A stretch of 64,000 nt of DNA from Eutreptiella sp. 'Long Island Sound 2002' (Eukaryota > Euglenozoa > Euglenophyceae > Eutreptiales > Eutreptiaceae): the NCBI GenBank assembly GCA_964036045.1, contig OZ038382.1, positions 76,731,918 through 76,795,917 on the forward strand. The letters run 5' to 3'. Below, one piece after another: positions 25,186 to 58,449 of the stretch. The translations under genes were made by a program, and so were the position numbers. Within the stretch, counting starts at the first letter, position 1. Each line of letters begins with the position of its first letter. Below the pieces are notes generated by a model. The model saw only the letters and a program-made list of their open reading frames with translations. It was not told where the DNA came from and did no database searches.

Positions 25186-25202
25186 TATATTTTCAGGAAT
25201 CG
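25186..25202. repeat. Right target-site duplication of copy A
   Basis: TATATTTTCAGGAATCG, the partner of 15085-15101 with one mismatch. Confidence 0.85.
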
Positions 25203-26525: not shown

Positions 26526-28230
26526 AAAGGTATGCCAAAGGTATGCCTGTACATGCATGCCGCCGCAAGCACAACAAGGCCACCACCGCCGCGGAAAACC
26601 AAAATGGTATATCCCATGAAGGGACCGAAAGGAACACAAAACAAACAAAGGTATGAAGTACGCGCGAAGGGGGCCACACACAACCAAGGGGAAGCACAAC
26701 ACCCACAAAAGTATGTTAAATGCCGCGCTACGCCACGCAACGAACAAGGGGAAAGCACAACGAAAAAGGTCTACCCCGAGATGTGCCCACAAGCCCACCC
26801 CTGCACGCCCGCTTGCATAGGGAGCAAAAGGGAGCGAAAGATATGCCCGTACCTGCATGCCGCCACAAGCGCAACAAGGCCACCACCGCCGAGCAAAAAC
26901 AAACTGGTATGGAGGGACACGAAGGAAGCAAGAAGGAGGAGAAGGACGCACGAAGGGAACCACACACAGCCAAGAGGAAGAACAACACGCACAATCACAA
27001 AAAAATAAAGAACGAACGTGCCGCGCAACGAGAAAAGCACAACGCCCAAAGCCCAAAACCACGCCAACCAAGAGGTGAAGCCGGGAACACAAGCCCACCC
27101 CCGCATGCCCGCTTGCTTAGGGAGCAAAAGGTATGACGCCGCACACAAAACAAATAGTAGGCGAGGAGGGAGCCACACACCGCCACCAAGGGCGCAAGTA
27201 TGTTACATGCAACGCACGAAAGCAACCAAAAGGGTGCAGCCGAGAGCCATGCCCACGCTGGCAAAAGGAGAAGAAAAGTATGCCCACACGCACACGGGTG
27301 ACCCAAGCCCAACCCCTCACGCCGCGCAAACAGGGAACGAAGGGCATGCCTGTAGCGACAAGCCGCCGCAGGCACAACACGACCGCCACCGCCACGGACG
27401 CGCAACATGGTATGAAGGGACAAGAAGGGTGCAGAACGCGCGCACACACATCAGAACAAGCGCAAGTATGATACATGCCGCGCTACGCCACGCAAGGAAG
27501 AGCGCAACGATAACCACGTCAACATAGGTGTGTGATGAACCAAAGGGTGTAGTAGAGAAAACATGCCAGTCCCCGCACACCCGCGTGCATAGGGAGCACA
27601 AGGGAGCAGCAAACCACACAAGACATGGGTAAGGAGGGAGCCACACGCCACCACCAAGAGCGCCCACGCGCCAACACAAGTGCAAGTATGTTAACCGCCA
27701 CGCCGCAGCACACAAACGGAAAAGACAACGAACAAAGGTAACCAAAATGGTGTGTAGAGCCGTGCCCGCCCCCACACGCCCGCACAGGAAGACACCGCGT
27801 GCCGTGGCCCGCATACTGTGCCCTGCCGCTGCCCGAAAGCCCACACCCACACCCTTCCTCTGTCTCACAGGACCGAGCAGGAGAGAAAGAAGAGGACTCG
27901 TGAAGCGGGACCAAGGAGGTAGGCAAGGAGAAAGACCAAGACAAACACCGGGGCGGAGGCAGGAGAAAAGTACAAGCCAGGGAGGAGGGCGGGCTAGCGG
28001 AGAGTAGAGGAAAGGGTAAAGAGCACCGCAACAACAGAAGAAAGAGGAGGGTAGCCAGCAGACGAGCGCGGGACGCGCGAGGAGAGAGGGACACGGCAAG
28101 CACACGACGGGCACAACACCACAACACAGGACCAGAGAGGGGGGCACCAGAGGGGCAGACGAAGAACAACACCATGCACCACAGCACGAACCGCACCGCC
28201 ACGCACCCGCCAGCGCACAAACACCGCACA
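26526..28230 (+). repeat. Diverged ~300-bp tandem repeats, outer 5' region of element G
   Basis: A unit containing CATGCCGCC(G/A)CAAGC...AACAAGGCCACCACCGCC recurs at about 26,555 and 26,857 and in weaker form at about 27,355. A second landmark (CACAAGCCCACCCC then CCCGCTTGC) recurs at 26,790 and 27,090 and, diverged, at about 27,570. Frequent GGTATG hexamers mark the units. No coding signal. It differs in sequence from the following ~420-bp array and may be a second monomer type. Confidence 0.6.
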
Positions 28231-28239
28231 GGCACCACA

Positions 28240-31200
28240 CATGCCACACACACCGACACCGGCGCCCACAGCACGTGGATGGCGGACCCCCGCAGCCCAC
28301 CCAGAGGGCGGGCAGCAAGGGAAGAAGGAGCGCCAGAACCCAGACGCCCCTCGCAAGGGTGGAAGGCCAACCCCCCGGGGACGGCCTCCCACCACCCCTG
28401 CGGCCCGCAGCCCCCAACAGGGCATGCAAGCCAAGGGGACAGTGCTGGGCCCCCCCACCCGCACACCCGCACCCACAGCACGTGGGTAGCGGACCCCGAC
28501 AGCCCCCCCGAGGGCGGGCAGCCGGGGGAGGGCGAGCGCCTGAACTCAGACGCCCCTGACAGCGGCGGAAGGCACCCTCCCCAGGGACGCCCTTCCGCCA
28601 CCCCCACAGCGCGCAACGACAGCTCAAAAGAGCGCACACTGTGGGGCTGGCCCACACCAACCACACCCGGGACACACGGGCCGCAGAACCCCGGCTACCC
28701 GCCCCAAAGGGCGGGCGGCCGGGGGAGGGACAGCGCCTGACACCAGACGCCCCTCCCCACGGTGGAAGGCCAGCCCCCCCGGGGAGGGCCCCCACCATTC
28801 CTGCTGGGCCTCCACACCCGCACACCTCCGAGCAAAGCACGTGGGCGGCGGACCCCAACAGCCCGCCAGGAGGGCGGGCAGTTGGGGGAGGGCGAGCGCC
28901 TGAACTGAGACGCCCCTCAAAACGGCGGAAGGCACCCCCCCCGGGGACGCCCTTCCTCCACCCCCACAGTGCGCAACGACAGCTCACTAGAGCGCACGCT
29001 GTGGGGCTGGTGTTTGGTCCCCTGGCCCACACCAACCGCATCCAGGACACACGGGCCACGGAACCCCGGCTACCCGCCCCATAGGGGGGGCGGCCGGGGG
29101 AGGGACAGCGCCTGACACCAGACGCCCCTCACCACAGTGGAAGGCCAACCCACCCCCGGGGACCGCCCCCCAGCACCCCTGCTGACCCCCACAACCGCAC
29201 ACCCTCACCCACAGCACGCGGGCGGTGGACCCCGACAGCCCGCCCGGAAGGCGGGCAGCCGGGGGAGGGGGAGCGCCTGAACTCAGACGCCCCTCACAAC
29301 GGCAGGAGGCATCCCCCCCAGGGACGGCCCCCCACCAGCCCTGCGTTACGCAGCCCCCCACAGGGTATGCAAACCAAGGGGACAGTGCTGGCCCCCCACA
29401 CCCGCACATCCGCACCCACAGCACGTGGGTGGCGGGACCGATCAGCCTGCCCGGAGGGCGGGCCGCCAAGAAGGGGGAGCGCCTGATCTCAGACGCCCCT
29501 CACAGCGGCAGAAGGCATCCCCCCCGGGAACGCCCTTCCGCCACCCCCACAGCGCGCAAAGACGGCTCACAAGAGCACACGCTGTGGGGCCGGTGCTGGG
29601 TCCCCACGGCCACACCAACCGCACCCGGGACACACGGGCCGCGGAACCCCAGCTACCCGCCCCAAAGGGCAGACGGCCAGGGGAGGGACAGCGCCTGACT
29701 CCAGACGCCCCTCACAACAATGGAAGGCCAGCCCCCCCCCCCTCGGGGACAGCCCCCAACCACCCCCGGAGTACACAGCCCCCCACAAGATATGCAAACC
29801 AAAGGGGACAGTGCTGGGCCCCCACACCCGCACACCCGCACCTACAGCACATGGCTGGTGGACCCCGACAGCCCGCCTGGAGGGCGGGCAGCCGGGGAAG
29901 GGGGAGCGCCTGAACTCAGACGCCCCTCACAACGGCAAAAGGCACCCCCCCCGGGGACGCCCTCCCGCCACCCCCACAGCGCGCGACAACAGCTCGCAAG
30001 GGCGCACGCTGTGGGGCCGGTGATGGGTCCCCACGCCGACATTAACCGCACCCAGGACACATGGGCCGCGGAACCCCGGCAGCCGGTCCCAAGGGACGGG
30101 CGGCCGGGGGAGGGACAGCGCCTGACACCAGACGCCCTTTGCAACGGTGGGGGGCCATCCCCCCCGGGGCCAGCCTCCGACCACCCCCGCGGCAAGCAGC
30201 TCCCCGCAGAGCACGCAAGCCAAGGGGACAGTGCTGGGCCCCAACACCCGCACACCCACGCCCACAGCACGTGGGTAGCGGACCCCAACAGCCCGCCCTG
30301 AGGGCCGGCAGCCGGGGGAGGAGGAGCGCCTGAACTCAGACGCCCCTCACAACGGCGAAAGGCACCCCCTCCGGGGACGCCCTTCTGCCTCCCCCACAGC
30401 ACGCAACGACGGCTCACAAGGGCGCACGCTGTGGGGTTGGTGCTGGGTCCCCACGCCCACACCAACCGCACCCGGGACCTACGGGTCACGGAACCCCGGC
30501 CGCGCGCCTCAAAGGGCGGGTGGCTCGGGGAGGGACAGTTCCTGACACCAGACGCCCCTTACAACGGTGGAAGGCCAGCCCCCCCCCGGGGACGGCCCCC
30601 CCCTACCCCCGCGCTATGCAGCCACTCACAGGGCATGCAAACCAAGGGGACGGTGCTGGGCCCCCACAGCCGCACACCCACACCCACAGCACGTGGGTGG
30701 CGGACCCCGACGGCCCGCCCAGAGGGCGTGCAGCCAGGGGAGGAGGAGCGCCTGAACTCAGACGCCCCTCACAACGGCGGAGGATACCCCCCCCCGGGGA
30801 CGCCTTTCCGCCACCCCCACAGCGCGCAACGACGGCTAGCAAGGGCGCACCCTGTGGGGCCGGTGCTGTGTCTCCACGCCCACACAAACCGCAGCCGGGA
30901 CACACGGGCCGCGGCACCCCGGCAGTCCGCCCCAAAGGACGGGCGGCTGAGGGAGGGACAGCGCCTGACACCAGACACCCCTCGCAACAGTGGGAGGCCA
31001 ACCCCCCCGGGGATGGACCCCCACCACCCCCGCAGCACGCAGCTCCCCGCAGAGCACGCATGGCAAGGGGACAGTGCTGGGTCCCCACACCTGCACACCC
31101 GCACCCACAGCACGTGGGCAGCGGACCCCGACAGCCCGCCCAGAGGGCGTACAGCCGGGGGAGGAGGATCGCCCGAACCTAGACGCCCCTCACAACGGCG

Positions 31201-32990
31201 AAAGGCTACCCCCCCGGGGACGCCCCTCCGCTACCCCCACAGCACGCAATGACGTCTCGCAAGGGCACACGGTGTGGGGCCGGTGCTGGTCCCCACGCCA
31301 ACACCAACTGCACCCGAGACACACGGGTCGCGGAACCCCGGCGGCCCGCCCCAAAGGGCGGGCGGCCGGGGGAGGGACAGCGCCTGACACCAGACGCTAC
31401 TCACAACGGTGACAGGCCACCCCCCCCCGGGGATGGCCCCCCACCAGCCCCGCCGTACGCAGCCCCTCACAGGGCGTGCAAAGCAAGGGGGCGGTGCTGG
31501 GCCCCGACACCCGCACACCTGCACCCACAGCAGGTGGGTGGCCAACCCCGGCAGCCCGCCCAGAGGGCGGGCAGCCGGGAGGAGGGAAGCGCCTGAATCC
31601 AGACCTGCCTCGCAACGCCCTTCCGCCACCCCCACAGCGCGCAAGGGCGGGTTGCAAGGGCACACGCTGTGGGGCCGGTGCTGGGTCCCCACGCCCACGC
31701 CAACCGCACCCTGGACACACGGGTCCCGGAACCCCGGCCGCCCGCCCCAAAGGGCGGGCGGCTGGAGGAGGGACAGCGCCTTACACCAGACGCCCCTCAG
31801 AACAGTGGAGGGCCAGCCCCCCCGGGGACGGCACCCCACCACGCAGGACATGCAAGCCAAGGGGACAGTGCTGGGCCTCCACAGGCACACACCTGCGCCC
31901 ACAGCGCGTGGGTGGCAGACCACGACAGCCCGCCCAGAGGGCGGGCAGCCTGAGGAGGGAAAGCGCCTGAACTCAGACGCCCGCCCCTCACAACGGCAAA
32001 GGGCATCCCCCCCGGGGACGCCCTCCCGCCATCCCGACAGCGCGCAGCAACGACTCGCAACAGCGCTCGCTGAGGGGCCAATGCTGGGTCCCCTTGCCCA
32101 CACCAACCACAACCGGGATACATGGGTTGCGGAGCCCCGGCTGCCCACCCCACAAGGCGGGCGGCTGGGGGAGGGATAGCGCCTGACACCAGACACCCCT
32201 CACAACGGTGGAGTGCCACCCCTCCCCGGGGACGGCCCCCCACCACCCTCGCGGCGCGGGGCCCCCCACGGGGCGCGCAAGTCACGGGCACAGTGCTGGG
32301 CCCTCGCACCTGCACAGCCGCGCCCACAGCTGGGCAGCCGGGGAGGACGAGCGCTCGAATCCGGGGGCCCCTCACAGCGGCGATGAATACCTTGGGTCCC
32401 CAAGCCCACACCAACTGCACAAGGGTCACACGGGTCGCGGAACCCTGGCCGCCCACCCCTCAAAAGGCGAGCGGACGGGGGAGGGACAGCGCCTGACGCC
32501 AGACGCCCCTCACAACGGTGGAAGGCCACCTTCCCCGAGGGACTGCCCCCCACCACCCCAACGGCACACAGCCCCCCGCGGGACATGCAAGCCAAGGGGA
32601 CAGTGCTGGGCCCCCACACACAGCACGTGGGTAGCGGGCTGGGGGAGGGACAGCGCCTGAATCCACACGCCCCTCGCAACGGCACAAGACATCCCCCCGG
32701 GGGCGCCCTCCAGCCACCCCCACAGCACATAACGACAGCTCGCAGGGGCACATGCATGCTGAGGGGCCGGTGCCGGATCCCCACGCCCACGACAACCGCA
32801 CCCGGGAAGAGGGGGCCCCAGAGCCCTGGCCCCACGCCTCAAGGGACAGGCAACGGTGGACGGCCACCCCCCAGGGGCGGCCTCCCATCACTCCAGCGGC
32901 ACGCAGCCCCCCGCAGGGCTTGGAAGCCAAGGGGACAGACACTGGGCCCCCATGCCCGCGCACCCGCGCCCGCAACACGCGGATGGCGGA
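28240..32990 (+). repeat. Array of about ten ~420-bp G+C-rich monomers upstream of ORF1
   Basis: The landmark GCGCACGCTGTGGGGC recurs (with variation) at about 28,630, 28,990, 29,574, 30,003, 30,422, 30,843, 31,264, 31,660 and 32,062, with a degraded copy near 32,752. Spacing clusters at 396-429 bp. Each unit also contains two variants of GAGCGCCTGAACTCAGACGC or GCGCCTGACACCAGACGC, and CAAGCCAAGGGGACAGTGCT. Long open frames on both strands are by-products of G+C content and repeat length. By analogy with mouse L1, whose 5' UTR monomers act as promoter units, this array may drive transcription of element G. Confidence 0.8.
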
Positions 32991-33247
32991 CCCCGACAGC
33001 CCGCCCAAAGGACGGGCAGCCGGGTACAGGAGAGCGCCCGACCTCAGACGCCCCTCGCAACAGCACAGGGTCGCCCGTGCCACACGGACAACAGGGGGAG
33101 CGCATAACGCCCACAAGAGCAGGCAAACGCCGGGCCACGGTGCCAACCTTCGAGCTCCCCTCCCAGGCCCCGCTGCACCCACAGCACGTGCACCAGCCGC
33201 GGGAAATCCACACACCATCCCCTGCTCTTAGGCACAGCGACACAACA

Positions 33248-34310
33248 ATGGCGGAGCCTGTGGCCCCACGCAAAACACGCCCCCGGTCTCCGACGCTGGA
33301 CGCGGCACACGAGGTCATCCAGGCGCTGGTACTCAGAGGCGGGGACGAGAACCCCTCCAGGAGCACGCTGATTCGCACTCCGACCTGGAGATAATTCCAG
33401 GGCCCCCCGCCGGCAGCGTGCCCACAGAACCCAGGCTGCCGGCGGGCAGCGTGCCCATCCTCTGCCGCGCGTGGAAACCGGGCCACTGCACCGGAGAAGA
33501 CTGGTGCCCCAGGCAACACCTCCGACCCGGCCCCGATAACGGAGCACTGCCCACGGTGGGGCACGCAGCCACGTGCGCCGTCCTGCGCTACGGGGTGGCG
33601 CAGGGCTGGATCCTGGATAAGACGACGCGCGGCAGCGTGAACATCCAGGAGGCCGTCGACCGGGTCGCCCACACGGGCCACAGGGAAGTGGCCCTGCACA
33701 CCTGGGTCCGTCGCGGCAAACCGGCAGAAGGGATCCTCGTGGAAACCACGGGAACGGTGCTGGTCCTCGCGGCAGACATGGTCCGAGGGGTGCTCCACGC
33801 ATCCCGCGTGCGGCGCGCGCGCCCACAGTGGACCATCCAGGTGTACGCCCCTCCACGGGCGTGGCCCTTCTCCACATGGGCAGTGTACGCCGTCATGTGG
33901 CACCTGGCACCGGAGGACGCCCCCACATCCACGCCTGGCCAGCCGACCAGTATTTCCCCTGGCGCGGACCCCAGGGCGGCCTCCCAGTGGCGCCCGCGGC
34001 CAAGGGGTTCAGCCTTGCGGCAACCCTCCAGCGGCACCCTGACAACAGGGCGCGCCACTTCCTACAGACGGGGGTGGTCCCGGCCGCCACGCCGGACTCC
34101 GAATGGCGGTGGGACACGGGGGGTGGACAGCCGCTGCCAGACCCGTGGATCCTCCTGCTGTGGTACTTGCACACGGGCACCCTGGCTCATGCTGCCCAAG
34201 CCGTCAAGGGGGCCTTCCCACAGCCACAACCCCCCGGCGTGGCCCTGCTCGACAGCCTGCTGGCGGGGGCGGCCTGGATACGGTGGTGAGAGGAGGACTG
34301 GCGCCTGAGC
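33248..34310 (+). pseudogene. ORF1 of element G, N-terminal part
   Basis: The most likely start is the ATG at 33248 just after the array: MAEPVAPRKTRPRSPTLDAA. The frame changes near 33,350 to DLEIIPGPPAGSVP, and reads AATCAVLRYGVAQGWILD, VNIQEAVDRVAHTGHREVAL and MVRGVLHASRVRRARPQWTI. Around 33,920 it shifts again to ADQYFPWRGPQGGLPVAP and DPWILLLWYLHTGTLAHAAQ, ending TGA at 34,287-34,289. No known domain is recognised in this part. The basic start and the position right after the monomer array support an ORF1 role. Confidence 0.5.
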
Positions 34311-34326
34311 CCCGATTTTCCCCCTG

Positions 34327-36633
34327 GTGCAGGGCCAGGCGCTACTTCACGCCGAGGGCATGGGGACCCTGGAGTGGGGGGCGAATATATCCGACACGGT
34401 GTGCAGGTGGATCACCGTGGCCGCCCCGCAACCCATGCGATCGCCGCCGGCGTGCCACCGCCTTCTACGGGCGATCCCCCCCTTGGCCCCCCGCGGCGCC
34501 CTCACAAGGGAAGTGTGGAGGGCCATGCTGAGCCACCCTAGGGAGTGGATGACGAACCCGGGTGCAGGGTACCCGCCGGGGCCGGTACTCGAGCAGCTCA
34601 CTGCCCCCACTGCTGGGGTCCGCCACAACTTGCACAGGGCGTCAGCCCTTACGGAACAGCTCATTGACGAAGTGCTGGACCTGGCGCCGGAACCGCGGCG
34701 GTTGCTCTACCCGCAGACCCACAACCCACCTGCGGGCACGTGAAATCGCCTCGGCCGCCTATCGCTGCAGCGCCGCGTCGAGGCCGCACAGCCAGGAGGC
34801 TTCGTTGAACAGTGGTTAGCACTCCACAATCCGTCCACCGCACAGGGCCACTGGTACCTGCCCCAACTCCTCTGCCTCCCCCGGACAACCCGGGAGCACC
34901 GCCGGCAGAAGCCATACGACACGCAACCGGAGCGCCTGGGCGTACAGAGCTTCCCGCAGCCGGCCCCAGCCGCCCTCCCGCCGGGGCAGGGCCCGGAGGC
35001 GCTGCAGCAGGGCCCCCCGCTGGACGTGGTCACCACGGTGCAGCAAAGGGGAAGCGACAACGCGGACGGGGCCGAGCAGGACCGCACGAACTGCGGGGTG
35101 GTGGCCTGGACGGCGGCCTGCAGGCACCTTGCCCGGGACACCGCAGGACTTAGGCAGTACAGGCCAGCGGACCGCACAACATTGGCGCCCACGGTCGCGG
35201 CCGTCACCATGGGACCCCTGGCGGCGTGGCCTGCGCAACTGCTGCCCCACGTCTCCTGCCGGGACACGCGGCCCCGCCAGCTGGCCGCAACGCACACGCC
35301 GACAGCACCCCTCACGGCGCAGCAGCTGTACGTCGTCGCGGCGGCACTACTGGCGGACGACGGGGAGAGCTTTGTGCACCACCACGGCCCGGCGCAGATT
35401 GCGGGGAGCATACAAGGGCCGCAGCGCGACGCGTGCCTTCCGTGGCACGCCACACTCCGCGAGCGCGCCCACGTCAGGGACGCAGGTGGCAGCACACAAC
35501 CTCCCGGACCTCAGCAGGGGGAAGCACTGGTACTACAGAGGGCGGGCTACCGGGCCATCCTTCACGGCCACGCCGGAGGGTACCGATCGCATATCTTGAC
35601 CGGGGGCCCCTGGACCCTCTGGCACGGCACCGCCAGACAGAAGGCATTCCCAGCCCAAGTTGACTGGCAGCAGGAGCCCGACCAGGCCTACTATATGAGG
35701 GCAGACTCCTGGCCGCTAGCAGTCCTGCTACACACCATCAGTGCCCACAGCAAGTGGCAGGAACCGGGATGGACCAACCCACCCACGCTGGTCTGGAGCC
35801 CCGACCAGGAGGAGCATCTACGGGCCGCATGGCAAGGAGACGCCGTCAGGGCCACGGACGTCCCGGACCTCCACGCGGGGCGAATCACGCACGCCCGCCC
35901 GGCGGCCACCCTCGCGGTAGCCCAACGGGGACAGCAGAATCCGCGGTGTGTAGTCTGCATGTTCAGCCTGGCGGACGCGCAAATCGCCGTCTGCAACCCC
36001 GAGCGCCTGCCGGGGCCGGAGGCCGTGATCAGCGCGGCGGACTGCACACGCATGATTGTCAAGGTTCTGCGCGTGGGCGAGCACCACGCCCTCCTGCTCC
36101 AAGTCCCTCTGAGGGACAATGGCAAGGCAGCAAAGCCGGGGGTGTGGCCGGCAGCGGCGCTCCCTGCCCACCTGGAGCTCCAGCTGGCGGTCTCAACCAC
36201 GGTATACCACTGGCTACAGGCCTTCCAGGACCTGCAATCGAGGGGCAAGCCCGACCGCCAAATCGGCGCCACGCATTGGCAAGAGTGGCTGCAGGCGGAC
36301 GCGCAGCGCGACGCCGTCCAGGGTCTCGGACCCGCGCCTGCAACAGGAGCCCTCGACGCATCGGCCCCGGGCCGCGCGCTGGCGCCACATACGGTTCTGC
36401 TGGCCAATCTGCCCTTTGACCCGGCGCCAGAGAGCGCCATCCGAAAGTCGGTGCCGCTTCCCCGGGCATGGGGGGCCACGGAGCCCACGAAATGCCCCCT
36501 ATGTGCTGACAAGTACTACACAAGTGGGGCGATGCTGAAGCACGTGGCGTGGCACGCGGTGCACGCCGCCGCCCCGGTGGAAGACAAGGAGGCGACCTCC
36601 CACATCCTCCAGGGGAGGGCAAGGATGCCCTGA
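34327..36633 (+). pseudogene. ORF1 of element G, C-terminal part: Ulp1/C48-like peptidase domain and C2H2 finger
   Basis: One frame is open from 34,327 to 36,633 except for a single TGA at 34,741-34,743. The peptidase-like part spans about 34,630-35,170: LTEQLIDEVLDLAP (like the N-terminal motif of Ulp1 domains), then GHWYLPQLL with the candidate catalytic His at 34,849-34,851. An Asp follows 23 residues later (YDT), and then EQDRTNCGVVAW with the candidate Cys at 35,092-35,094, 81 residues after the His. The order H-W-x-L, D, Q-x(3)-N-C-G-V is that of C48 (SUMO-protease-like) cysteine peptidases. A ~450-residue unassigned region follows. The protein ends with a classic C2H2 finger, CPLCADKYYTSGAMLKHVAWH (first Cys at 36,493). 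C48-like or OTU peptidases are known in a few LINE and Helitron proteins. Confidence 0.6.
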
Positions 36634-36790
36634 TGGCATGCCCCATACGCCCAGCGCCCCCCGCCCCAGGTGGCCGGCCGCGTGGCGGCCCCAGAGGACG
36701 AGGAGGAGGCGCCCGGGGCAGCCTCCGAGGCTGGCGGTGCTGCCCAACAGGGGTCCCTCCCCGCTACAGTTCAGCCAGTGGCCTCTTCCG
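36634..36790 (+). other. Short G+C-rich segment after ORF1, possible ORF2 leader
   Basis: The segment contains an ATG at about 36,632 overlapping the ORF1 stop. One frame reads acidic/Ala text (APEDEEEAPGAASEAGGAAQ), another Arg/Gly text. It is cut at about 36,790 by A+T-rich DNA. It may be the beginning of ORF2, separated from the APE domain by the insertion. Confidence 0.3.
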
Positions 36791-38030: not shown

Positions 38031-38124
38031 AAATCAAAGGTGACTGGCCCCGCTGGCCCCCCTGTGGGCCCCACTGGGAGCGGGCTCCCCAAACCCCATG
38101 GCCTTGGCACACCCAGGAGATCTG

Positions 38125-41508: not shown

Positions 41509-41511
41509 CCC

Positions 41512-44849: not shown

Positions 44850-45150
44850 AAATGCTTTTGCCACTATGGCATTCAACAAACCTTATCGTCAATAACAACC
44901 CTTTAGCTCAATGCTTTGCTTTACTCTTTACCATGTTGTATCAAGCCGGGGCCTTGTGCATTTTTCAAAACCTATGTTACCCACCGATAATGTGTTTTTG
45001 CAAAACAAGCTCTTCAAGAAATGTTTTGAAATACACCATGCCACACTATGTGAAACAAGCCATGGTTTCAATGCTATGTCATTGCTAACCCTAACCCTAA
45101 TATCATGCACAAAAACAATGTTTTCACACATTGACCATGTGCCCATTTGT
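44850..45150 (+). repeat. Segment duplicated on both sides of the minisatellite (left copy)
   Basis: CCCTAATATCATGCACAAAA followed by ACAATG near 45,095-45,120 is repeated near 48,040-48,070, with further similarity upstream (TTCAACAAACC, CAATGCTTTGC) at 44,873-44,925 and 47,957-47,985. The pair brackets the 65-bp array. The right copy adjoins the transposase stop. Confidence 0.65.
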
Positions 45151-47800: not shown

Positions 47801-47934
47801 TGCTTTTGGTTGCGCGTGTGGTGTTGCGTGGGCGGGGCGTCGCTGCGGGGCGCTCACCCGTCAATTCGGACGGCGGCTGTCCGTAGCCGGTAGGGGCTGG
47901 GTACCCTCCGGGCGCGTTTTCTTAATTATGTCTT

Positions 47935-48095
47935 TTAACAAACATTTTCAAATTCAACAAACCGTTCCTCCAATGCTTTGCCTTGGAATCGACAATGTTG
48001 CCTTTCACACCATGTACCCTAAGCCATTACTAACCATATCCCTAATATCATGCACAAAAAACAATGCTTTCGTACATTGACAATGTACCCACTAG
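47935..48095 (+). repeat. Segment duplicated on both sides of the minisatellite (right copy)
   Basis: Partner of 44,850-45,150. It overlaps the end of the transposase reading on the other strand (stop near 48,019). Confidence 0.6.
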
Positions 48096-51000
48096 TCCTC
48101 CTCACTCTCCTCATCAGAGGCCTCTTCCTCTTCCTCCGTGCTCTTTTTCTATTTAAAAACTTAGAATATTGGTCCTCTAGTGGACCAAAATCGGGAAAAT
48201 ATTGCATGTTGCTTCTTACAAAAATCAGAAGCTCAACATGCTCCGGGGTTCGCCTTGCGCGTCTTCTTGTGACGAGGTGAGAACATCCACTAAATGTCCT
48301 TTCCGATGATGCGGATGTTGCCGCCGGCGCAACCGCCTTTGATGGTCGTGCCAAAAAGAAATGGTACCAAAGATACCATGCGCGAGAGTTTGATAACTAC
48401 TCAAATTGGTAGTTCGGATATATGTCAAGTATGCATCTTTCTCATTTTGCACTTGATGGTCCGGTACACCATCGACCATGTTACCAAAATTATTGAAAGC
48501 TCGATCAATGACGCCTTCCATTTTCTTCAACAGAGGCTCTTCATCCACTTCCAACTCCAAGGCCTCCACTTTCTCCTCCTTCTCCCTTGCTGTGACTAAT
48601 ATTTCAGCAACTTCCATACTTTTGCGGAATACTTCGGCGGCATAACCCACATTTTCTTCTCTGATTAGATCTGCCAAATGCAAGGCCATCGATGGGTCCA
48701 ATTGTAGGGCGAGGAGGGTACTGTCAGGCGGGAGATCGCCGAATCTGTCTTCCAGCTGAGTTTTGAGCAGCTGGATGCATTGGGCGATCCTTTCTGGCAC
48801 CTGCGCATCAGGGCAGACACAGTGGCGACAGCGCATTTGAGGTTTTCTTTTGGGCCTTCTGAGCACGATTATGACTGCGGGTGTGTTTTTGTCTTACAAA
48901 TTTGTGTTCTGCAACGCAGTAGCTTTCAAATGAGCCCCATAATGTCGAATTCTTGACTGGCGTCGGTCAAGGGCTGTTAAGGGATCGGCACACTTTCTGT
49001 TCACCACCACTTCAGACAGTTCCGTAAAGTGCAGCAACAATCATACCAATGACAGTGGGACGCGTTCTTGAGCACCATTACGGTGAACATGGACAAATCC
49101 AGAAGAGACGTCGCGGCTCAGCTGAGTAATCAAGACATGCGCAACGTTGCTTGTCAGATAAGATTCGCCCTCCAAAAAATATGTGGCTTCAGCGAACGGC
49201 TGCGAAACACCAATCAGAAACCTCAGAACACAAATTTCGGATGCTGTAGGGAGTAGCTGTTGATATTCTTCCGCCATGGAGTCGTCATTGAAAACCTCAC
49301 GTAGTGTTTGAATATGCGCTAACACGCTCTTCGCCATCATAAATGTCGCATTCCATTGCGTTGGCACGTTCTGCCCAAATGAATGTGTGTAGGAGATCGA
49401 ACTTCAGACAAGAGCGCAAGCGCTTTGTGCCTACTTGACGCTCTGCCGGCATGTCGCAGTGAGCGAATGGAGGAGCACATGATTGATCGTTCGACGGGAG
49501 AACGAGAAAAAAAGAGTGAGTACACCAACAATCAATGCAAGAGAGAGCGAAAAGCAGTGCGTCTGAACCATGCGATGAAGGTGTGAATGCACAACCCTGC
49601 CAAACTCGAAATCCAACAAGAGCGCTAGCGCTTTTTTCCTAGTCAATGCGCTGCATGTCGCAGTGAGCGAATGGAGGAGCGAAAGACCGATCGATCAATG
49701 GGAGAAGGAGAAAACAGGAGGGAGTACACGAGCCAGCACCGCAAGAGAGAGCGAAAACCACTGCGTCCGAACCACGCGCCCTCAAGCAATGCAAAGAAGG
49801 CGATTGAACGATTGAACACTCGAGTAACTGACCTGCTTCAGTGAGAAATTGGAGGTGCCATGCTTGTGTGCTGCCTGCGTCAGTTTGCGGTGCACTTTGG
49901 TGGAGTTGTTAACATATGCAACGAGTTTCTTACATTTTGCAATCACTGCCACCACAGTGTTGATAGGATCGTCGTCTGCTGGATTTCCTGCATTTCCAAT
50001 GCCATATTGGACGTACCGTTGTAGGGTATGGGCGTACCAACCTCTGAAGTTGAGGTCCATCAACCCAACTGCCTTTTTCATATTTGCGGCATTGTCGGGT
50101 GTAATCACACTAATGTCGTCACTGCTCAAGTCCTTTCTGCGTAGCACAGCCCCAAGCCAGCTGGCTATTGCTACTCCTGTGTGGCTGTCCTCAGAAAACA
50201 CGTTCACATCCAAAAGTACATGGACAAAGTGCAGATCTCCAGTGAAGAAGGACGCGTTTACGGCTCCATAGGCATTATGCTGAACTGTGGAGGTCCACAA
50301 ATCAGTTTGTAACGCGATAGCAGGTTGTCCCCATTTCTCCTTTGCTTCAAACAGCATTTGCTGTAACTTCTTCTCCATCATTGCTTTGGCGACTGATAGA
50401 ATCTTTCTGACCGTCCCTCGACAGGCTGGTGTATAACCAGCACAGAGACCACCCACAAAGGCACGCAGTGTGGCGCTCTCAACTGTAGGTGCAATTGTTG
50501 CAAGAGCAGACACTACCCATTTGGTAAGATGATAGTGATGAACCAGGCTCCTGGCAAAGGGCATGTTATACTGCAAGGAACCCTGTGCATCCTGTACCAC
50601 TTTGTGCCGAGGTGAGTACATTGCGAGTTGCACCCAAAGGCTGTAATGTTTGGGATTCATGTGTGAAAACAGTGCACTAGTTGATGTAGCATGGTTGGTG
50701 ACTTTCTGCCCACACACACGACAGCTGAAGAGGCCTGGATTCAACTTCAGAAAGTGATCGTACACTCTTGATCTCTGCTCTGCAGGTCTGAGGCAAAGCA
50801 AACACTGCGCTGGTGTCTGAGGAGTTGCTGGTGTACTTGAAGAAGATGCCGTGTCCTGCGATCCCTGTAGACTCTGAGAAAGGTGACTATCACGACGGGC
50901 TTGTTCAGCCGCAGTGATAAGCTTACAATTGTCCCCAGCATACCCTTTGAACTGTGTCTCACTGATTGCATATGTCCGCAGTTCCCCAGTGTTCTCCTTG

Positions 51001-51398
51001 ACCTGCATCTGAAAAGCGCCTGGTGGATGCTTGCCTTTAGGCCATTGGTAGTTTGGGTCCCCGGAAACAATCTCTGCTTCCCATTTTTTTTTGCGATCAT
51101 AACCACTGAGTCCAGACCAGAAAATGCGAGGAACCTGGAATGTAACCCCAATATTGTCCACTTTGTCCACCAGCAGGATGTGTTGCTGCATTTCTGTCAG
51201 TGAAAAATGCAGAATCATGAAGAATCTTACATTGAAACGTTGCAAGAAACAATTCAAACGTGTACTGATTTGTTTTTTTTTGCAATGTGAAGTGCTGTTG
51301 TGGCAGACGGAAAAATGTCGCTTTTTGTAAAACAAATGTCGCTTTTCGTGCTGGCAGTGATGTGTTGGCAGTGCACATGCTTCACCTCTGGTGAGCAT
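48019..51398 (-). CDS. hAT transposase, three exons, one late frameshift
   Basis: Exon 1 runs from an ATG at 51,398 (or a later one, about 51,190) to 49,833. It has a BED-type finger (CRVCGQK ... LFSHMNPKH), TDLWTSTVQHNAYGAV with the first catalytic Asp, ISVITPDNAANMKKAV with the second, and WYAHTLQRYVQ. Intron 1 (49,371-49,832) starts GTCAGT and ends TTGGGCAG. Exon 2 (49,370-49,047) starts NVPTQWNATFMM, the conserved hAT R-W region (here Q-W). Intron 2 (48,801-49,046) starts GTATGA and ends GCGCAG. Exon 3 (from 48,800) reads VPERIAQCIQLL and LALQLDPSMAL (third acidic region). Both introns are phase 0. Near 48,350 the frame shifts to ATSASSERTFSGCSHLVT, the C-terminal dimerisation motif, ending about 48,019. 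It catalyses cut-and-paste transposition. Apart from the shift it looks complete. Confidence 0.88.
49371..49832 (-). other. Intron 1 of the hAT transposase, with internal ~200-bp duplication
   Basis: The intron keeps the exon frame (phase 0 on both sides). Inside, AAGAGAGAGCGAAAA...CACTGCGTC/CAGTGCGTC-type text is repeated at about 49,540 and 49,742, and GTCGCAGTGAGCGAATGGAG at about 49,453 and 49,659. Confidence 0.75.
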
Positions 51399-51481
51399 GC
51401 TGCCACTGAGATTTGTAGGGAGATTTTCCCAAAAACGTTACGGAGAATTTGCCGTGGAATATTTCATTTATGTATTGTTTT

Positions 51482-51975
51482 GGCTGTTCTGCAATGGTTA
51501 GCGTAATTTTGCCACAAAACAAAATGTCGCTTTTGTTACAATATCATTCAGCATGCAATAACAACAACCATCCAAAAGCCTCTAGAAAATCCAAGAATGC
51601 AAATACCCAAACACCATAATGTCAAAAACAAGGAGTGCTGGAGGTGGCTGTTCTGCAATGGTGAGCGTAGTTTTGCCGCAAAAAAAAAGGCGCTTTTGTT
51701 ACAATATCATTCAGCAGGCAATAACAACAACCATCCAAAAGCCTCTAGGAAATACAAGAATGCAAATACCCAAACACCATAATGTCAAAAACAAGGAGTG
51801 CTGGTGATGGCTGTTCTGCAATGGTTAGCGTAGTTTTGCCGCAAAAACAAATGTCGCTTTTGTTACAATATCATTCAGCACGCAATAACAACAACCATCC
51901 AAAAGCCTCTAGGAAATACAAGAATGCAAATATCCAAACACCAAAATGTCAAAAACAAGGAGTGCTTGAGGGAGC
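51482..51975. repeat. Three tandem ~163-bp repeats upstream of the transposase
   Basis: GGCTGTTCTGCAATGG(T/A)-type landmarks lie at 51,482, 51,646 and 51,809. Each unit continues through GTTACAATATCATTCAGCA and CATCCAAAAGCCTCTAG. They are in the 5' region of the transposase gene, so a promoter or binding-site role is possible but unsupported. Confidence 0.85.
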
Positions 51976-52157
51976 GAATTGTTGAGCCTGAAGCATCGCA
52001 GTGTCATCGATTTGGATGCCAGTTTCATATTTTCTCGAAAGACATGGTGTTTCTCATGAAATGAAATATTTTTTTGTTCTTGTTTCATATGAAATGAGCG
52101 ATTATTTTGTCTCGTTTCACTTTTTTCGAGAATATTTTTTTTTCATACCAAACTCTA

Positions 52158-52165
52158 CGCTCGGC
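52158..52165. repeat. Right 8-bp target-site duplication of the hAT element
   Basis: CGCTCGGC, identical to 44,455-44,462. Confidence 0.9.
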
Positions 52166-52570
52166 AGGGACTACCAGCGCCGCGTCCGCGCCCGCCTGCT
52201 AGAGCTCCGGGACCCCCTTCGCCAGCGGTGGGAGGACCTCTGGCTCCATCGTCTCGGCTCCTGGTCGCCGCACTCCCACCTCCCGCACACCTGCCACCTC
52301 TGCGGAGACCGCGATACGGTATCCTCCGCAGCACCGACGGGGACCAACAGGTGCACGCAGTGCTCCCAGGTGGCCGCATGCCCCTGGCCCGAACGACCAA
52401 CGGGCCCGCGCAGACGCACCGAAGAGGAGGCGCTGCACCGACGTATCGGGGGGGCACCCACCCCCTCACACGGCCACGCGGGCCCTGCGGGCGCTGCCCT
52501 CCTTCGGATCCACGTGCACCTGCGGGACCCCACGTCCGTTGCGCACTTGTTGCACGTGTTCGCGCCCTGA
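52158..52570 (+). pseudogene. ORF2 of element G: C-terminal zinc domain, after the hAT
   Basis: Resumes RDYQRRVRARLLELRDPL and reads LPHTCHLCGDRDTVSSAAP, NRCTQCSQVAACPWPE, then RIHVHLRDPTSVAHLLHVFA with a TGA at 52,568. Two CxxC pairs separated by about 20 residues form a zinc-ribbon-like unit. Copy A matches at 16,200-16,611 with mostly conservative or silent differences, and both copies stop at the same place. This defines the C-terminus of ORF2 in this family. Confidence 0.65.
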
Positions 52571-52619
52571 CCCCCACCCGCCGCCACGCTTTGCAGAGCC
52601 CGCAGCACGGGGGAACAGG

Positions 52620-53792
52620 CCGCAGCACACCAGTGCCTGCCGCCGCGCGCAAAAGGGAGCCGTCCGGGGCCTGGTGGCAGACACGGTGACGGAGGCGCAC
52701 AAGGCACAGGCTGCCGCCTAACACAACCCGGCGGGCAGTGCGAGGGCTTTCCTCAGCGAGGCCGCCATCCCGGCCGTCCGCGCCCTGAACGGAGCGGGGG
52801 CCCCTAAGCTGCTCACGAGGATGCACTGGATCGTGAACGCTGTCCAGCACGGGCTCATAAGCCCTGAGGCAGCCCTCTACGGGCACTGGATGGAGTGGCG
52901 CACGTCCAACCGGTCAGGCCGGCCCCTGTCAATGGGAAACACCCTACGGCTGACGGGCGCAGGGTCTACCATGTCCCTCCACAGCAGCGCCCCAGCCCTG
53001 CTGCACTCCCTCAAGACGCGCTGCCCCGGGGACGCGGCCCCGTACATGAACCAGGCGCAGACCACATACCCAGGAAGGGTGTCCAAATCGGATGCGGCGC
53101 TCCAACTTTTGCATCCGCCGGAGGAGGACCTGGAGGTGGGCGGAAGAACGGTGTTCGTAGAAAGCGCGGGCGAGGCGTCCACCCCCCCCCGTACGCCGTC
53201 GCGTGCGAGGCATTCCCCAGAGAGCCAGCATGGTGCCCCGCCCTCCCGCCGGCGACGCACGCAGCCCGCGGCTGGGGCAGCCCGCACCTGTTCCCCCCCT
53301 CCCCAGAACTGGGGGTGCCCACCACAGGGGCAGATCCTCCAGCAAGAGCGCCCGGTCACCCCCCTGCTCCTCCTCGTCGTCACGACCCGCGGGGACCCGG
53401 AGCCGGTCCTGGGGATCACCCCTAACCACCTGTACGGGGCAGGGCCCATGCCCCGCCCCCCCCTCCCGGCGCCTGCAGTGCGGGACGGGGTACACGCCTT
53501 CACGCGAACACAGGAGGTCACCGCCGTCACGGAAGTCCACCTGGTGCGGCTCCCCTCAGCGCCACCCGACGACCCCCTGGGGCCCAGCGCCCTGAGCCCT
53601 GCCCCAGACTGGGAACTGTGGCGCGACGTGTGGGCCGCATGGCTCACCCACCTCCTGCCCCAATGCCGATGGATGACCACCAGCCCCCGCCCGCGCGGGG
53701 CCGACGCCACCGCCAGCCCCCCCTCCCAGTTCACCCCTCCCCCCCGCGGAACACTGCACGGCACCGCCCACGGCACACCAGAGATGCACTAG
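52620..53792 (+). pseudogene. ORF3 of element G, conserved protein of unknown function
   Basis: Text starts RGLVADTVTEAHKAQAAA (then a TAA at about 52,719) and continues ARAFLSEAAIPAVRALNGAG. From 52,821 the frame is open to 53,792: MHWIVNAVQHGLISPEAALY, MEWRTSNRSGRPLSMGNTLR, LLHPPEEDLEVGGRTVFVES, VTPLLLLVVTTRGDPEPVLG and DWELWRDVWAAWLTHLL. A local frame change affects about 53,190-53,330. The order matches copy A ORF3 throughout. No catalytic motif or membrane segment is evident, and the VTPLLLLVVTTRG strand is too short for a membrane helix. Position between ORF2 and ORF4 suggests an accessory product. Confidence 0.6.
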
Positions 53793-53825
53793 GAAGTAGT
53801 GGACAAGACACGCCTGCCGCCACGC

Positions 53826-55657
53826 ATGCCTACCAGGATAACAGTGATGTCGGACTCCGATGGCTCTCCCCAGCGGGACGACCGGCACCACCGCCGGTCC
53901 CGCTCCCGCTCCCCCGTCTCCCCGGGGTACGCGGGAGAGACCCTCGCGGAGCGCGAGGAGCGGCGGCTGGCAGAGGCAGCGTTGCCGGTCCGGCCGCTGG
54001 CTGGGCAGCCCCGGGCGGCCCCTCGCCGACCTGAGCCGTCGACCCAGGAGCCAGCGCCGATCGAGGTGACCACCCCCGCCGCCCAGTACGCGAACCCTGC
54101 CGCTCTGCCCCCGGAGGGGACCCCAGGCGCGCAGAGAGCTGAGACCGCGGACCAAGCAGGCCACACCACGGCCCCGACCGACCACGCCGCGGCCCCCGGC
54201 ACGCCGCCAGCGCGGGGAGTAGCCCCAGTGGGGGCCCTGAGCGCCTCGACGGGAGCCGCCGCAGCCGCAGCGGGGGGCAGGGAGGGCGGAAGTACCGCGC
54301 CCACACCAATCCCAGCGGCACCCACACCAGCCCACACAATCCGTACCCCATCAAGGCTGCCTTCACTAAGGGGAGGCAGCGGCCTGTCCGCCCCCCGTTG
54401 CCCGAGCGTACGCCGCCAGGCATCATGCTGCTGCAGCTGCAGCGGCAGCAGGACACCCGGCGCGTGATTTTGGAGGGGGGGGGGGTGCGCAGACGGGGCA
54501 GGGTGCCAGCCACGGGAGCGCGGAACGAGGAACGGGAGGCGACAGGGAGAGTGCCCAAGGCCACGCGCAGGGGACAGACCTGGGCGCACGCGGCAAGGAG
54601 CGAGGGCGAAGTCGTGGGTAAGGCGCCGAAGCCAGCGGCAGCGGAGAGGGGCAGAGCACGGGCAGCGGGCAGGAACGGGGAAAGGGCAAGGGCACGGGAA
54701 AGACCCGCAGGGACGGGAGCAGGGCGCCCCGGCGGGCGGCCAAGGAGCGCATGGAGGGGAGCGGGCTGCGGTCGACGAACCGGGGCGCAGCTAGGGACTG
54801 GGGCACGGGCACGGGAAGGATACGGGCACCAGGGGTGCAGGCAAGGGCGTAGGCAAGCAGGCCGGGAAGGAACCCCAGGGCAAGGGGGGGAAGGGCAGCG
54901 TAGACCCCCGGGGACAGGCAGGGCGGGGCACGGGAGTCATCTGGGGGGGGCAGGGCGGAGGACGACGGACGGGGAGGCGGGGCACCCCTGCAGCTGGACG
55001 TTCAGCCGGTGTGGTGCTTTCTCCCCGGCATCCAACAAAAGCCGGCGCACCACACCCACCTCTACAACATCGACCCTGATGCGGGGGACCTCATCCCCCC
55101 CCGACCCCCCAGACGCCAACACCAGCCGGCCTCGCCCGTGGCGCCGGAGCTGAGGGGAGAGCCGGCGCGGATGGCTGCTGCCCCGGCGGCGGGGGGACGG
55201 GGCGCGGCGCTGGCGCTGCAGGCACGGGCGCCGCAGGGGGAGCCGGCGCGGGGGGAAGGGGGGGCCCGGTCCTGGGACCGGGACTGGGACGGGGTCCCGG
55301 ACCCCCTTGGGAGCGAGGGCCTCCCCCTTGTGCTGGAGGTGCAAGAGCCTGCTCAGGGACCACCAGGGGGATGAGGAACCGGCCCTTCGATTTCGTGCTT
55401 CTATGGAGGGAGGGGGGTGGGCGATCCCGGAGGACCACGGGAGGGTCCTCTGGGATGTGATTTCGGCGGCGTGGCCCGACAGGGAGCTGACGTGGCCAAC
55501 GTTCCTGGAGGGGGGGGCGCTGCTCCGCATCACGGATGCGGAGGCCAACAACTGGCTCCCCCGGGCTCTGCGCACCGACCTCACCCACTGGCGCTACCGC
55601 CTGCGGAACCCACCGCCGCCTCAGCCCCAGCCCCCCCGCAAGCGGGGACGCAGGTAA
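53826..55657 (+). pseudogene. ORF4 of element G: SR-rich N-terminus, low-complexity middle, conserved C-terminal domain
   Basis: ATG at 53,826 begins MPTRITVMSDSDGSPQRDDR followed by HHRRSRSRSPVS and ETLAEREERRLAEAA. A frameshift near 54,410 leads to MLLQLQRQQDTRRVILEGGG and a Gly/Arg/Ala-rich region. Near 55,020 the frame of 55009-55374 gives PGIQQKPAHHTHLYNIDPDA (only three His, against a long His tract in copy A). After another shift near 55,340 it reads LLRITDAEANNWLPRALRTD and the tail PPRKRGRR with a TAA at 55,655. The conserved blocks interleaved with variable low-complexity DNA indicate a real protein. RNA binding through SR/RGG segments and a basic tail is inference. Confidence 0.55.
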
Positions 55658-58423
55658 CAGCCGTGCCCCGCCGTCCCAGGCGAGGAGCGCTGGAGAAGGA
55701 CAAGTGCCGCCCCACACCCCCCCAACTGGGCAGGGCTCCCCGGCAGAAGGCGCACCGCCCAACCTCCCCACCGTAGGGCGCGGCGGGGCCCTGCAGCCCG
55801 CTAACCCCTAACTGCTTACCCGAGCTGCCACCCCCGGCACCCGCCTGCCCCCCCCTCCCCCCAGCCGGCGAACCGACACAACGCGGTGAGGCCGCGGCAC
55901 GACAGCCTGGCGCCCGGAGGATGGGGGTGGGGCAGGAGACAAATGCACCCCCCCTGTCAGCGGCTGGCCCCCCGGGACTGAGACCACCAGGCCGCCGCAG
56001 AGCGAAGCCAGGGGACCGGGGAGGGGCCCCGGGAACCCCCCCCCCTCTTCCTCCTGTCCCCCCCCGTCCGCGGACAGCCGGAGGCACACCAGGGGGCGGC
56101 AGCCCTGCACCCCCCCCTGAGAGGGCCGCGGCACCCAGGGGGGGAGGCCACGACCGCGAGGAGCTCTGCTGCGCGCCGAGTGCCGCCAGTCGGCCGCCCG
56201 CTCACTGCCGCAGCGCCCGCAGCAGGCCGGCAGCCCTGCGCCGGCGCTCAAGGGCGCCCCGTAGACCGCGGCGGGACGGCGGCGCCCAGGAAAGCAGAAT
56301 GAAGGGGGCGGCGGGGGAACAGACCGCGGCCGAGCCCCCGGGAGGGGGCGAGGCACCTGCCCCCCCCCCCCCCGCCAGGCTGACCCACCGACGGCTGGCC
56401 AGGCCGCGCCTGGGGCCCCGGGCGGCCCAACGGCCCCGGCTGAACAAGTGTACCCGAAGGGAATGCGCCGGCGACGGAGGAAGGCTGATCTGGGGAACGC
56501 AGGCCGCCGCCCCGGAGAAGGGAGGTGGGGAACCACGGCGCGACCCCCCCTCCCCTCTCCCCCCACCCTCTCCCCGGCCGGTGGGCCACGGGGGCACCGG
56601 CCCTCCACCCCCCCTGGGCAGAGGGGACGTCCCTTCTCCCCCCAAAGGAACCGCGACGCCCGGGGGGGGGGACACAGCTGATCCTGCACGCCACGCGCCC
56701 CCACGCCCCCGGCCGCCTGCTCCCACGGGGGCCACGACAGGCGAGCGGACCCGCGCCGGCGCACGGGTCACACCCGGGGACAACAAGGGTGCACAAACCG
56801 GAGCGGTATGGGGGCCACGCCCTCCATACCCAGAGCGACGCAAATGGCACCCGCTCTGTTGCCTGCCCAGGGAAGGCAGCGGAACGGACCGAGGTAAGGC
56901 GATCCCCCGCCCCGCTAGGCCCCCCTGCCACACCTCTGGGGAGGGCGGCACATAGCCCCCCCCCCCCCCCCCCCTGCCAGACTGACCCGCCGACAGCAGG
57001 CCGCGCCCGGCGCCCGGGGCTACCACACAACCCCGGCCGAACAAGCATACGTGGGGGCAATGAGCCGGCGAAAAAAGGGGGTCCGGGCCGGGGGCCACGG
57101 GCTGGCCCCCTAGGAAAGGGAGAAGGGGAACCACAGCGCGACCCCCCCTTCCCCTCTCCCCCCACCCCCAGTATCCGGCCTGCGGGCCACAGGAGCGCCG
57201 GCCTCCCACCCCCCCCAAGCCAGGGGGGGCGTCCCCCCCTCCCCCAGGAGGACCGCAGCGCCGAGGGGGAAGGCCGTAGCAGGGCCCGAACGCCACGCGC
57301 CTCCACGCCCGGACGACGTGCTCCGACGGGGACCGCAACAGGCGCACAAACCCGAGCCGGCGCACAACGAAGCCACACGGTCCATGCCCGGGGGCGACAC
57401 CCGAACAAGAACCGGAGCAGTATGCAGGCAACGCCCTCCATGGCTGGAGCGATGCCGATGACACACGCTTTGTTTCCTGCCCAAGGAGGGCAGAGGGACG
57501 GACCGAGGCAAGGCAGACAGGCCGCCCCCCCCCCTCCCCCCCCGCCCCGGCCGCGCAGGCCCGCCCTAAGGGAGGCACACAACCCAGCGTTGGGCAGGGG
57601 GGGAATGGGACCGGGCCGCCCCCCCCCCAAAAAAAACAAGCCAAACGGAGCACGGGACAGAGGCAGGAGACACGGAGGGGCACGGACCGCGTGGAACGGC
57701 CCTACCGGCGCCCAGCACCGGGACCGCGCGAGTTGCGCGCGCCGAGCCGACCCAGCGGGGGGGACGCGGGCGCCGTGGGAGCGCGAGCACACACACACAC
57801 ACAAAGAACACGCGGGGAATACCAGAAGGGCAACCGGACCAAGCCCGCGGAACGCACAGACCACATGGAATGACGTACCAGCCAGCGAGGATAAGGGACA
57901 TCCGGACATGACGACCCGCCACACACAGCGCGGAGACCGCGGGGCGGGGGGGGGAAGCGGGGAAGACACAAAGCCCGGCAACGGCACCAACCCCCCCGAA
58001 CCGGCCGCGAGCGCCGCGCACACACGACCAGGGCTCTGCACCCGCCAAGGCAGTAGTGGCACACCGCGCCACGCACCAACCCAACAGCTAGGCAGCCTCC
58101 GCGCCAGCCCCCGGGGGTCCCACTGGCGACAAGCCAGCAGCGCGGGCCCGGCGGCGCCGACACCCCGGGCGACCACACATTAGGGGGGCGACGCAGTGGG
58201 TAAGCGCCTGCAGCCACGGCTGCTAAGTGAGGCACTGACCGGGGAGTGGCGAAATGGGGAAGCCGGGGAGGGACGGGGCTCCAAGCCGTGTGAACCCGGG
58301 GGACTCCCCCACCAGGCAGAAGGTGTGTCATGAAGGGCCCCCCACTAGGACCCGCTGGGGAGGATATCACCTGGCCCAACCAGGTGGCCCCCCGGAGCCA
58401 AAAGGCGTTCAGTACCCGCAAAA
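55658..58423 (+). other. 3' UTR of element G
   Basis: G+C-rich with many C and G homopolymers. Long open frames on both strands contain no conserved domain. The last ~530 bp (57,890-58,423) match copy A closely, including the A-box-like GACGCAGTGGGTAAGCGC at 58,190-58,207. Confidence 0.6.
56350..57570 (+). repeat. ~600-bp tandem duplication in the 3' UTR of element G
   Basis: Landmarks recur at a spacing of about 600-613 bp: CCAGGCTGACCCACCGACGG/CCAGACTGACCCGCCGACAG at 56,372 and 56,976, and CTGCCCAGGGAAGGCAGCGG/CTGCCCAAGGAGGGCAGAGG at 56,868 and 57,478. Copy A has only one counterpart of the second landmark per 2.8-kb unit. Confidence 0.75.
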
Positions 58424-58449
58424 TCAAACCTCAAACCTCAAACCTCAAA
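58424..58449 (+). repeat. (TCAAACC)x3 + TCAAA 3' tail of element G
   Basis: Same heptamer as in copy A. The flank continues ATTTTGCACTTGCGATGCAT, which is gene P sequence, so element G ends inside a gene P copy. Confidence 0.88.

Follow-up and report, generated by a model that had tools for sequence, protein, structure and literature searches.

A 22.8-kb APE-type LINE with a selected third open reading frame in Eutreptiella sp. 'Long Island Sound 2002'

The window analyzed in this study is a stretch of 64,000 nt from contig OZ038382.1 (positions 76731918-76795917, labelled C5 in the search labels) of Eutreptiella sp. 'Long Island Sound 2002', and it carries at 26,518-58,449 a copy, here named B, of an APE-type non-long terminal repeat (non-LTR) retrotransposon, i.e., a long interspersed nuclear element (LINE). 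We regard it as very probable that B belongs to an autonomous APE-type LINE family, approximately 22.8 kb long, with a third open reading frame (ORF3) under selection; this confidence covers the element and the selected ORF3, and does not extend to readthrough or to the function of ORF3, both discussed below. LINEs usually contain one or two ORFs and are several kilobases long. A sequence-only reading of the window had proposed a giant multi-ORF non-LTR retrotransposon, a proposal that is upheld by two young copies elsewhere in the genome (c1, 22.8 kb, and c2, 18.7 kb), by the linkage of the reverse transcriptase (RT) to ORF3, and by the ratios of nonsynonymous to synonymous substitution rates (dN/dS); the length that it gave, ~20 kb, is nearer 22.8 kb.

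Structure of the young copies and of the copy in the window

The host assembly (2.28 Gb, 2,205 contigs) was searched with the RT piece of the window (39,925-41,505), and the copies c1 (L034-L036, contig C1) and c2 (L031-L033, contig C2) found by this search were read as 30-kb stretches. The order of the parts in these young copies is a 5' leader, an array of ~212-bp monomers, ORF1, ORF2, ORF3, a 3' untranslated region (UTR), and a TCAAACC tail. Copy c1 is near full length at 22,762 bp (positions 4,547-27,308 of its stretch), and two other copies place the true 5' end ~20 bp beyond its start; c2 is 5'-truncated inside the monomer array. In c1, a leader of ~2 kb is followed by 18.5 monomers of 212 bp (TRF on c1 and c2), ORF1 (10,550-14,242; 1,231 aa, as in c2), which is closed by UGA, ORF2 (14,246-20,938; 2,231 codons), which is closed by UAA, and ORF3 (20,942-24,250; 1,103 codons, compared with 1,117 in c2), the first AUG of which is codon 14. 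All three ORFs are in one common frame, and the 3' UTR is ~3 kb long in c1 and 4 kb in c2. The two copies are collinear, with 98.3% identity over the longest block, of 13.0 kb, and 93.6-99.2% in the remaining ones; both match B in parts and order without the two insertions that B contains. The features of B, of a second, partial copy in the window (A), and of the sequences flanking B are as follows.

26518-28243 (+): 5' leader of B, before the monomers; short matches to the c1 leader, with the start placed at the end of the flank duplication
28244-33065 (+): 5' monomer array of B, ~210/420-bp units (TRF, self-comparison)
33248-36790 (+): ORF1 of B, decayed, end approximate; B 33190-36756 has 81.6% DNA identity to c2 10492-14083
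36791-38030 (no strand): first of the younger insertions in B, its ends placed approximately, inside 36,757-38,045; c2 has just 47 bases there
38167-38169 (+): ORF1/ORF2 stop site, which reads AGA in B and TGA in c1 and c2
38170-44465 (+): first part of ORF2 of B, with APE, RT, and zinc motif; 84.8% DNA identity to c2, Pfam on c2 ORF2
44466-52156 (no strand): second of the younger insertions in B, 7.7 kb long and missing from c2 and copy A
52157-52570 (+): ORF2 C-terminus of B, last segment Cys-rich (substitution periodicity, junction alignment)
52571-55655 (+): ORF3 of B, decayed and split; 1,103-1,119 codons in c1, c2, and scored copies
55656-58423 (+): 3' UTR of B; the start of the c2 3' UTR, read as codons, gives dN/dS of 0.72-1.14 (A vs c2)
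58424-58449 (+): (TCAAACC)n tail of B; also present in c1, c2, and A and at six further 3' ends
15096-25186 (+): copy A, partial, from the ORF2 end through the tail; 84-92% identical to c2 by block
25892-26517 (+): 5' copy of the ~627-bp flank duplication around B; 91% identical to 58446-59072
58450-59072 (+): 3' copy of this duplication, located within an ORF (58,294-59,274) with no Pfam match

The layout that the sequence-only reading gave for B at about 26,518-58,449 recurs in the same order in copies elsewhere. Its two younger insertions are likewise real, since c2 is continuous across both and copy A lacks the second, and its heptamer tail (58,424-58,449) and its partial copy A (15,096-25,186) were found as described. 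The extent of ORF2 had to be corrected: the frame runs across the 44,466-52,156 insertion to a stop at 52,568-52,570, which is TGA in B and TAA in c1, c2, and A. The two extra conserved ORFs that it placed after the RT (ORF3 and ORF4) are a single ORF3 of 1,103-1,119 codons that decay has split in B; the two-ORF interpretation was rejected, as c1 and c2 carry a single frame and no stop interrupts it at 35 of 41 scored places. The RT motif reads YINDL in B and YIDDL in c1 and c2.

Linkage of the three ORFs and selection on ORF3

The host genome contains thousands of insertions of this family: 1,636 places fit a degenerate RT-motif pattern (reversed pattern, 0), and there are 5,441 3' ends with at most 1 mismatch (reversed control, 0). 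Of the 20 RT-motif places that were read, five match c2 at 98-100% over the piece, and the family has been active recently; the other 15 (41-93% to c2, several with broken frames) are older copies of the same lineage. The RT search scored the best 82 of 14,207 candidates, and the genome-wide ORF3 search scored the best 41 of 239,153; because the scored places are the best-scoring ones, the following frame and stop counts favor intact copies. The best 82 comprise the window itself and 81 places at 87% aa identity; ORF2 is open for exactly 2,231 codons in 47 of the 82, and the RT piece is stop-free in 81. The best 41 ORF3 places are all 97-100% identical over the entire query, and the ORF is 1,115-1,119 codons long in each of them, compared with 1,103 in c1.

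As the sequence-only reading had proposed, the linkage of ORF3 to the RT was checked in other copies. ORF3 lies downstream of the RT in 18 of 20 RT copies (13 exactly at 4,941 bp from the alignment start and 5 within 6 bp), and there was no match at the expected place in 2 of the 20. Eight of the 40 ORF3 matches other than c2 pair with one of the 81 listed RT matches, at a distance of 4,941 bp in seven and 5,140 bp in one. From the remaining 32, 20 were checked by fetching the expected ORF1/ORF2 junction, which was found no more than 2 bp from its expected place for 16 and gave no match for 4. A chance composite of adjoining separate elements, for which only the window's own nested insertions speak, is ruled out by these counts and retains a negligible probability, given the same order and spacing in c1, c2, and the 18/20 and 16/20 further copies. 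The block is a real element.

The GC content is 70-76% here, and an antisense frame of 778 aa is also open in c2; long open frames are expected by chance at such a GC content, and selection tests were therefore needed. The dN/dS values were calculated by the NG86 method in the true frame and in shifted-frame controls. Between B and c2, the values are 0.30 for ORF1 (1,159 codons), 0.25 for ORF2 (2,209 codons), and 0.47 for the first half of ORF3 (543 codons), with 0.93-1.57 in the shifted frames of these three regions. Between c1 and c2, they are 0.21, 0.15, and 0.50 for ORF1, ORF2, and ORF3, respectively (shifted 0.81-2.45). Copy A, aligned with c2 for this purpose over a 6-kb stretch at 93% identity, gives 0.26 for the ORF2 tail (shifted 1.71, 1.69) and 0.51 for ORF3 over 1,058 codons (shifted 1.04, 0.86). 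ORF3 is thus kept by selection after the RT, and the dN/dS check suggested for the former ORF3 and ORF4 holds for ORF3 at 0.47-0.51, while its second half in B gives a weaker 0.62-0.70.

Several values temper this conclusion. The selection signal of ORF3 is weaker than those of ORF1 and ORF2, and its shifted frames between c1 and c2 give 0.81 and 1.37, with shifted values down to 0.75 in individual stretches of the ORF. Between B and c2, the middle of ORF3 gives 0.70 (shifted 0.91, 1.11) and its end 0.62 (shifted 1.01, 0.70). The role of ORF3, in turn, is read from its composition, with no family match: SR-rich, RG-rich, and His-rich stretches suggest that the protein probably binds RNA or nuclear RNA-processing factors and aids the packaging, export, or protection of the unusually long transcript.

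A second LINE family offers a comparison. Copy c1 sits antisense inside another kind of LINE (L034:2976-3533, - strand), RT pieces of which, the ones compared with c2, are 46-48% identical to that of c2. This family 2, a second abundant young LINE family in the host genome, was searched by its RT (best 150 of 13,025 candidates scored); apart from the query itself, the 150 places are 70-83% identical to the query RT, and the frame is exactly 2,234 codons in 62 of them. In one family-2 copy (C5:76.27M), there is no ORF3 match (E above 1) in the 3.6 kb past ORF2, and 200-bp samples from two more copies are 99% identical to this post-ORF2 region. As this one copy lacks a match, the extra ORF looks specific to the family of B (family 1) and not a feature of the wider group, and ORF3 would have been gained in family 1 or else lost from family 2.

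Family 2 apparently spreads without ORF3, and the dN/dS of ORF3 exceeds that of ORF2 about two- to threefold, as expected if ORF3 were a passenger, i.e., DNA picked up and carried along by a two-ORF LINE but dispensable for transposition. We consider this unlikely in view of the dN/dS of about 0.5 in three comparisons and the ORF3 length held in 41/41 best-scored places, 35 of them stop-free, in a set that favors intact copies.

The UGA junction in two LINE families

The APE profile starts at codon 13 past the UGA of ORF1, and the first Met is codon 51; in c2, there is no AUG in any frame from -20 to +151 around the UGA. The UGA is present in c1, c2, and all 16 of the further young copies that cover the junction (20 fetched). 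Among 20 older copies fetched, 14 cover the junction, which reads UGA in 12, UAA in 1, and UGG in 1. In the family-2 copy C5:76.27M, a relative of ORF1 (29.7% over a short stretch of 91 aa, against which E is 8e-5) likewise terminates at a UGA in frame with ORF2, and the APE motif SWN lies from the twelfth codon on. ORF1, UGA, and APE are in one frame in 7/7 family-2 copies read at the junction (this one and six more). The junctions and the lack of an ORF3 match in the family-2 copy read past ORF2 together indicate that ORF1-UGA-ORF2 is the shared layout.

We slightly favor readthrough of the UGA as the route to ORF2, with roughly even confidence. The shared frame of ORF1 and ORF2 in both families is required by readthrough and not by termination followed by restart at a non-AUG codon after the UGA, a route that we hold to be a serious contender at somewhat below even odds. 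Restart was observed for SART1 and proposed for L1, according to PMC5972666, and an AUGA overlap is present in 5 of the 7 family-2 copies read; however, this AUGA is out of frame with APE, and no in-frame AUG precedes the APE domain. On the other side, some observations weaken the case for readthrough. B has AGA at the junction site, over the TGA and the following 12 nt 10 of 225 bases are mismatched (4.4%, where the mean is 6.8%), and the 18-base window from the TGA ranks 150 of 436 for conservation. The fold downstream of the UGA is mildly stable (z -1.8, with 10/200 shuffles as good). A specially conserved readthrough context past the UGA was rejected, as the flanking bases are not unusually conserved.

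The common frame and the lack of a start codon in ORF2 would also fit a single ORF1-ORF2 gene, in which the UGA encodes an amino acid in the host or is spliced out. This is improbable: UGA closes ORF3 as well in c1 and c2, and it ends ORF2 in B, where c1, c2, and A have UAA; this usage fits UGA as a stop codon.

If the slightly favored readthrough, or restart, operates, expression would proceed as follows. The monomer array would drive the transcript, from which ORF1p would be translated, and ribosomes would reach ORF2 by in-frame UGA readthrough or by a non-AUG restart right after the UGA, yielding small amounts of the large APE-RT protein, perhaps fused to ORF1p. For ORF3p, translation would restart at an AUG of its own, 39 nt past the ORF2 stop.

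A wider proposal, which we put forward tentatively, is that these families form a previously undescribed group of giant APE-type LINEs that express ORF1 and the endonuclease-RT as a readthrough polyprotein over a UGA kept between families with RTs about half identical, one family having gained a selected ORF3 for the handling and full copying of its 22.8-kb RNA. No description of the element was found in the open-licence papers searched, a search in which Repbase was not covered, so the claim of the sequence-only reading that it is undescribed is unproven. If the proposal is true, the element would be among the longest LINEs known. A recently active family of this length, with a selected ORF past its RT, tests how long an RNA can be copied in full by target-primed reverse transcription, and what an extra protein adds to a LINE; the families with and apparently without ORF3 are a natural contrast. 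The shared UGA and the lack of an AUG for APE make a readthrough-expressed LINE RT directly testable.

Class assignment, insertion, and other features of the window

The element has a LINE-type RT, a 3' repeat tail, 5' truncation, and target duplications; it is an APE-type LINE. ORF2 of c2 matches Exo_endo_phos (PF03372, 1.8e-9) at residues 13-269, covering profile positions 1-225 of 225, and RVT_1 (1.3e-22), and the best PDB matches of its RT are an R2-type RT (8gh6, 4.9e-17) and L1 (1.3e-12). The long piece matches zf-RVT at 0.058 and a fragment does so at 0.00086, both under the curated cut-off, and ~560 aa follow the zinc motif. The APE-RT part of the earlier ORF2 annotation is therefore backed by profiles, but its RNase H label is not: no profile or PDB match was obtained for RNase H in ORF2, where only a degenerate D..E..H..D-like pattern is seen by eye. 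The C-terminal region of ORF2 has no profile match to a restriction-like endonuclease, and APE is the sole endonuclease found.

Neither ORF1 nor ORF3 of c2 has a match to a Pfam or NCBIfam family with an E of 1 or below. The C48-like label given to ORF1 lacks profile support; a peptidase C48 has no Pfam or PDB match there, and an LND..HW..NCG series, of which HW and NCG are kept in ORF1 of B, is an unconfirmed pattern seen by eye. A C2H2 finger in ORF1 has Pfam E values of 0.15 (B) and 0.19 (c2 fragment), below the cut-off, with spacing that fits by eye, and a CCCH finger is an unconfirmed by-eye pattern. The PDB matches of ORF3 are weak and mostly to its His-rich stretch. Structure models have low confidence, with a mean pLDDT of 28.5 for part of ORF1 and 32.4 for the ORF2 C-terminus.

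The element resembles APE-type LINEs (L1 and the I-group clades I, Ingi, R1, Loa, Tad1, and others) in the APE and RT of ORF2, the zinc motif after the RT (a weak match here), the 3' repeat tail, the short target duplications, and the 5' truncation. It differs from them in its length of 22.8 kb, its three ORFs in one frame, the 1.1-kaa ORF after the RT ORF, and an ORF2 of 2,231 codons that extends ~560 aa past the zinc motif and has no AUG. Mouse L1 has tandem ~210-bp 5' units before ORF1, a likeness in layout. Dualen/RandI elements, which carry APE plus a restriction-like endonuclease, are similar in APE and in a long ORF2 with an extra C-terminal region, whereas no restriction-like endonuclease is shown here and ORF3 is extra. 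Terminons have a Penelope-like RT and are telomeric; they are alike as giant retroelements with ORFs besides the RT, whereas this element is an APE-type LINE with a TCAAACC tail. PMC5718144 mentions Terminons as giant rotifer retroelements. In PMC4640811, RNase H is reported for the I group, with no confirmation in this element, and Dualen/RandI is named with RNase H. The same paper describes an N-terminal Ulp1-like protease in nematode NeSL and Utopia members, to which the possible Ulp1-like motif in ORF1, seen by eye, is the likeness. Utopia and its relatives encode a restriction-like endonuclease, in contrast to the APE found here.

Eight young copies were examined for target duplications, and both ends were found in six (the 5' end was not found in two). 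The flank matches in the six are 9, 13, 14, 16, 17, and 773 bp, where the 9-bp match was made by eye, the 13-bp match has an E of 0.26 and 10 filler bases between match and element, and the 17-bp match overlaps tail and element and is perhaps shorter. The 773-bp duplication flanks c1 (L034:3774-4546 and L036 from 7309; 99.87% identical) and corresponds to codons 340-538 of ORF2 of the target LINE; it is target sequence and not an LTR, and may reflect a far second nick or another repair path. The 627-bp, 91% duplication around B is possibly an old long target duplication. Long target duplications (600-800 bp) as a rule were rejected, as five of the six young copies have 9-17 bp. In c1, c2, and B, a few bases are common to tail and target where the two meet, consistent with priming inside the heptamer repeat; insertion would occur by target-primed reverse transcription starting in the TCAAACC tail, with short matches at the nick.

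The second insertion in B (44466-52156) has a ~9-bp target duplication and short inverted ends (AGTGTTTGGAATGA / AGAGTTTGGTATGA), of Mutator-like size, and a 65-bp x 31 repeat within; an antisense frame of 551 aa inside it has no Pfam match. Copy A holds an internal 2.8-kb tandem duplication (19039-24643, 96.9% identical), and tandem repeats of ~1.1-1.3 kb (94-98% identical) lie directly 5' of it at 11278-15015. Rfam and tRNA scans of the window and an IMG/VR scan with the RT pattern gave no match. The CpG observed/expected ratio in the flanks is mostly 0.6-0.9. A 479-aa frame at 8200-9636 (+) has two matches below the cut-off, a weak one to Dam N6-adenine methyltransferase (E 0.0022) and another to a retroviral-type aspartyl protease (E 0.0034).

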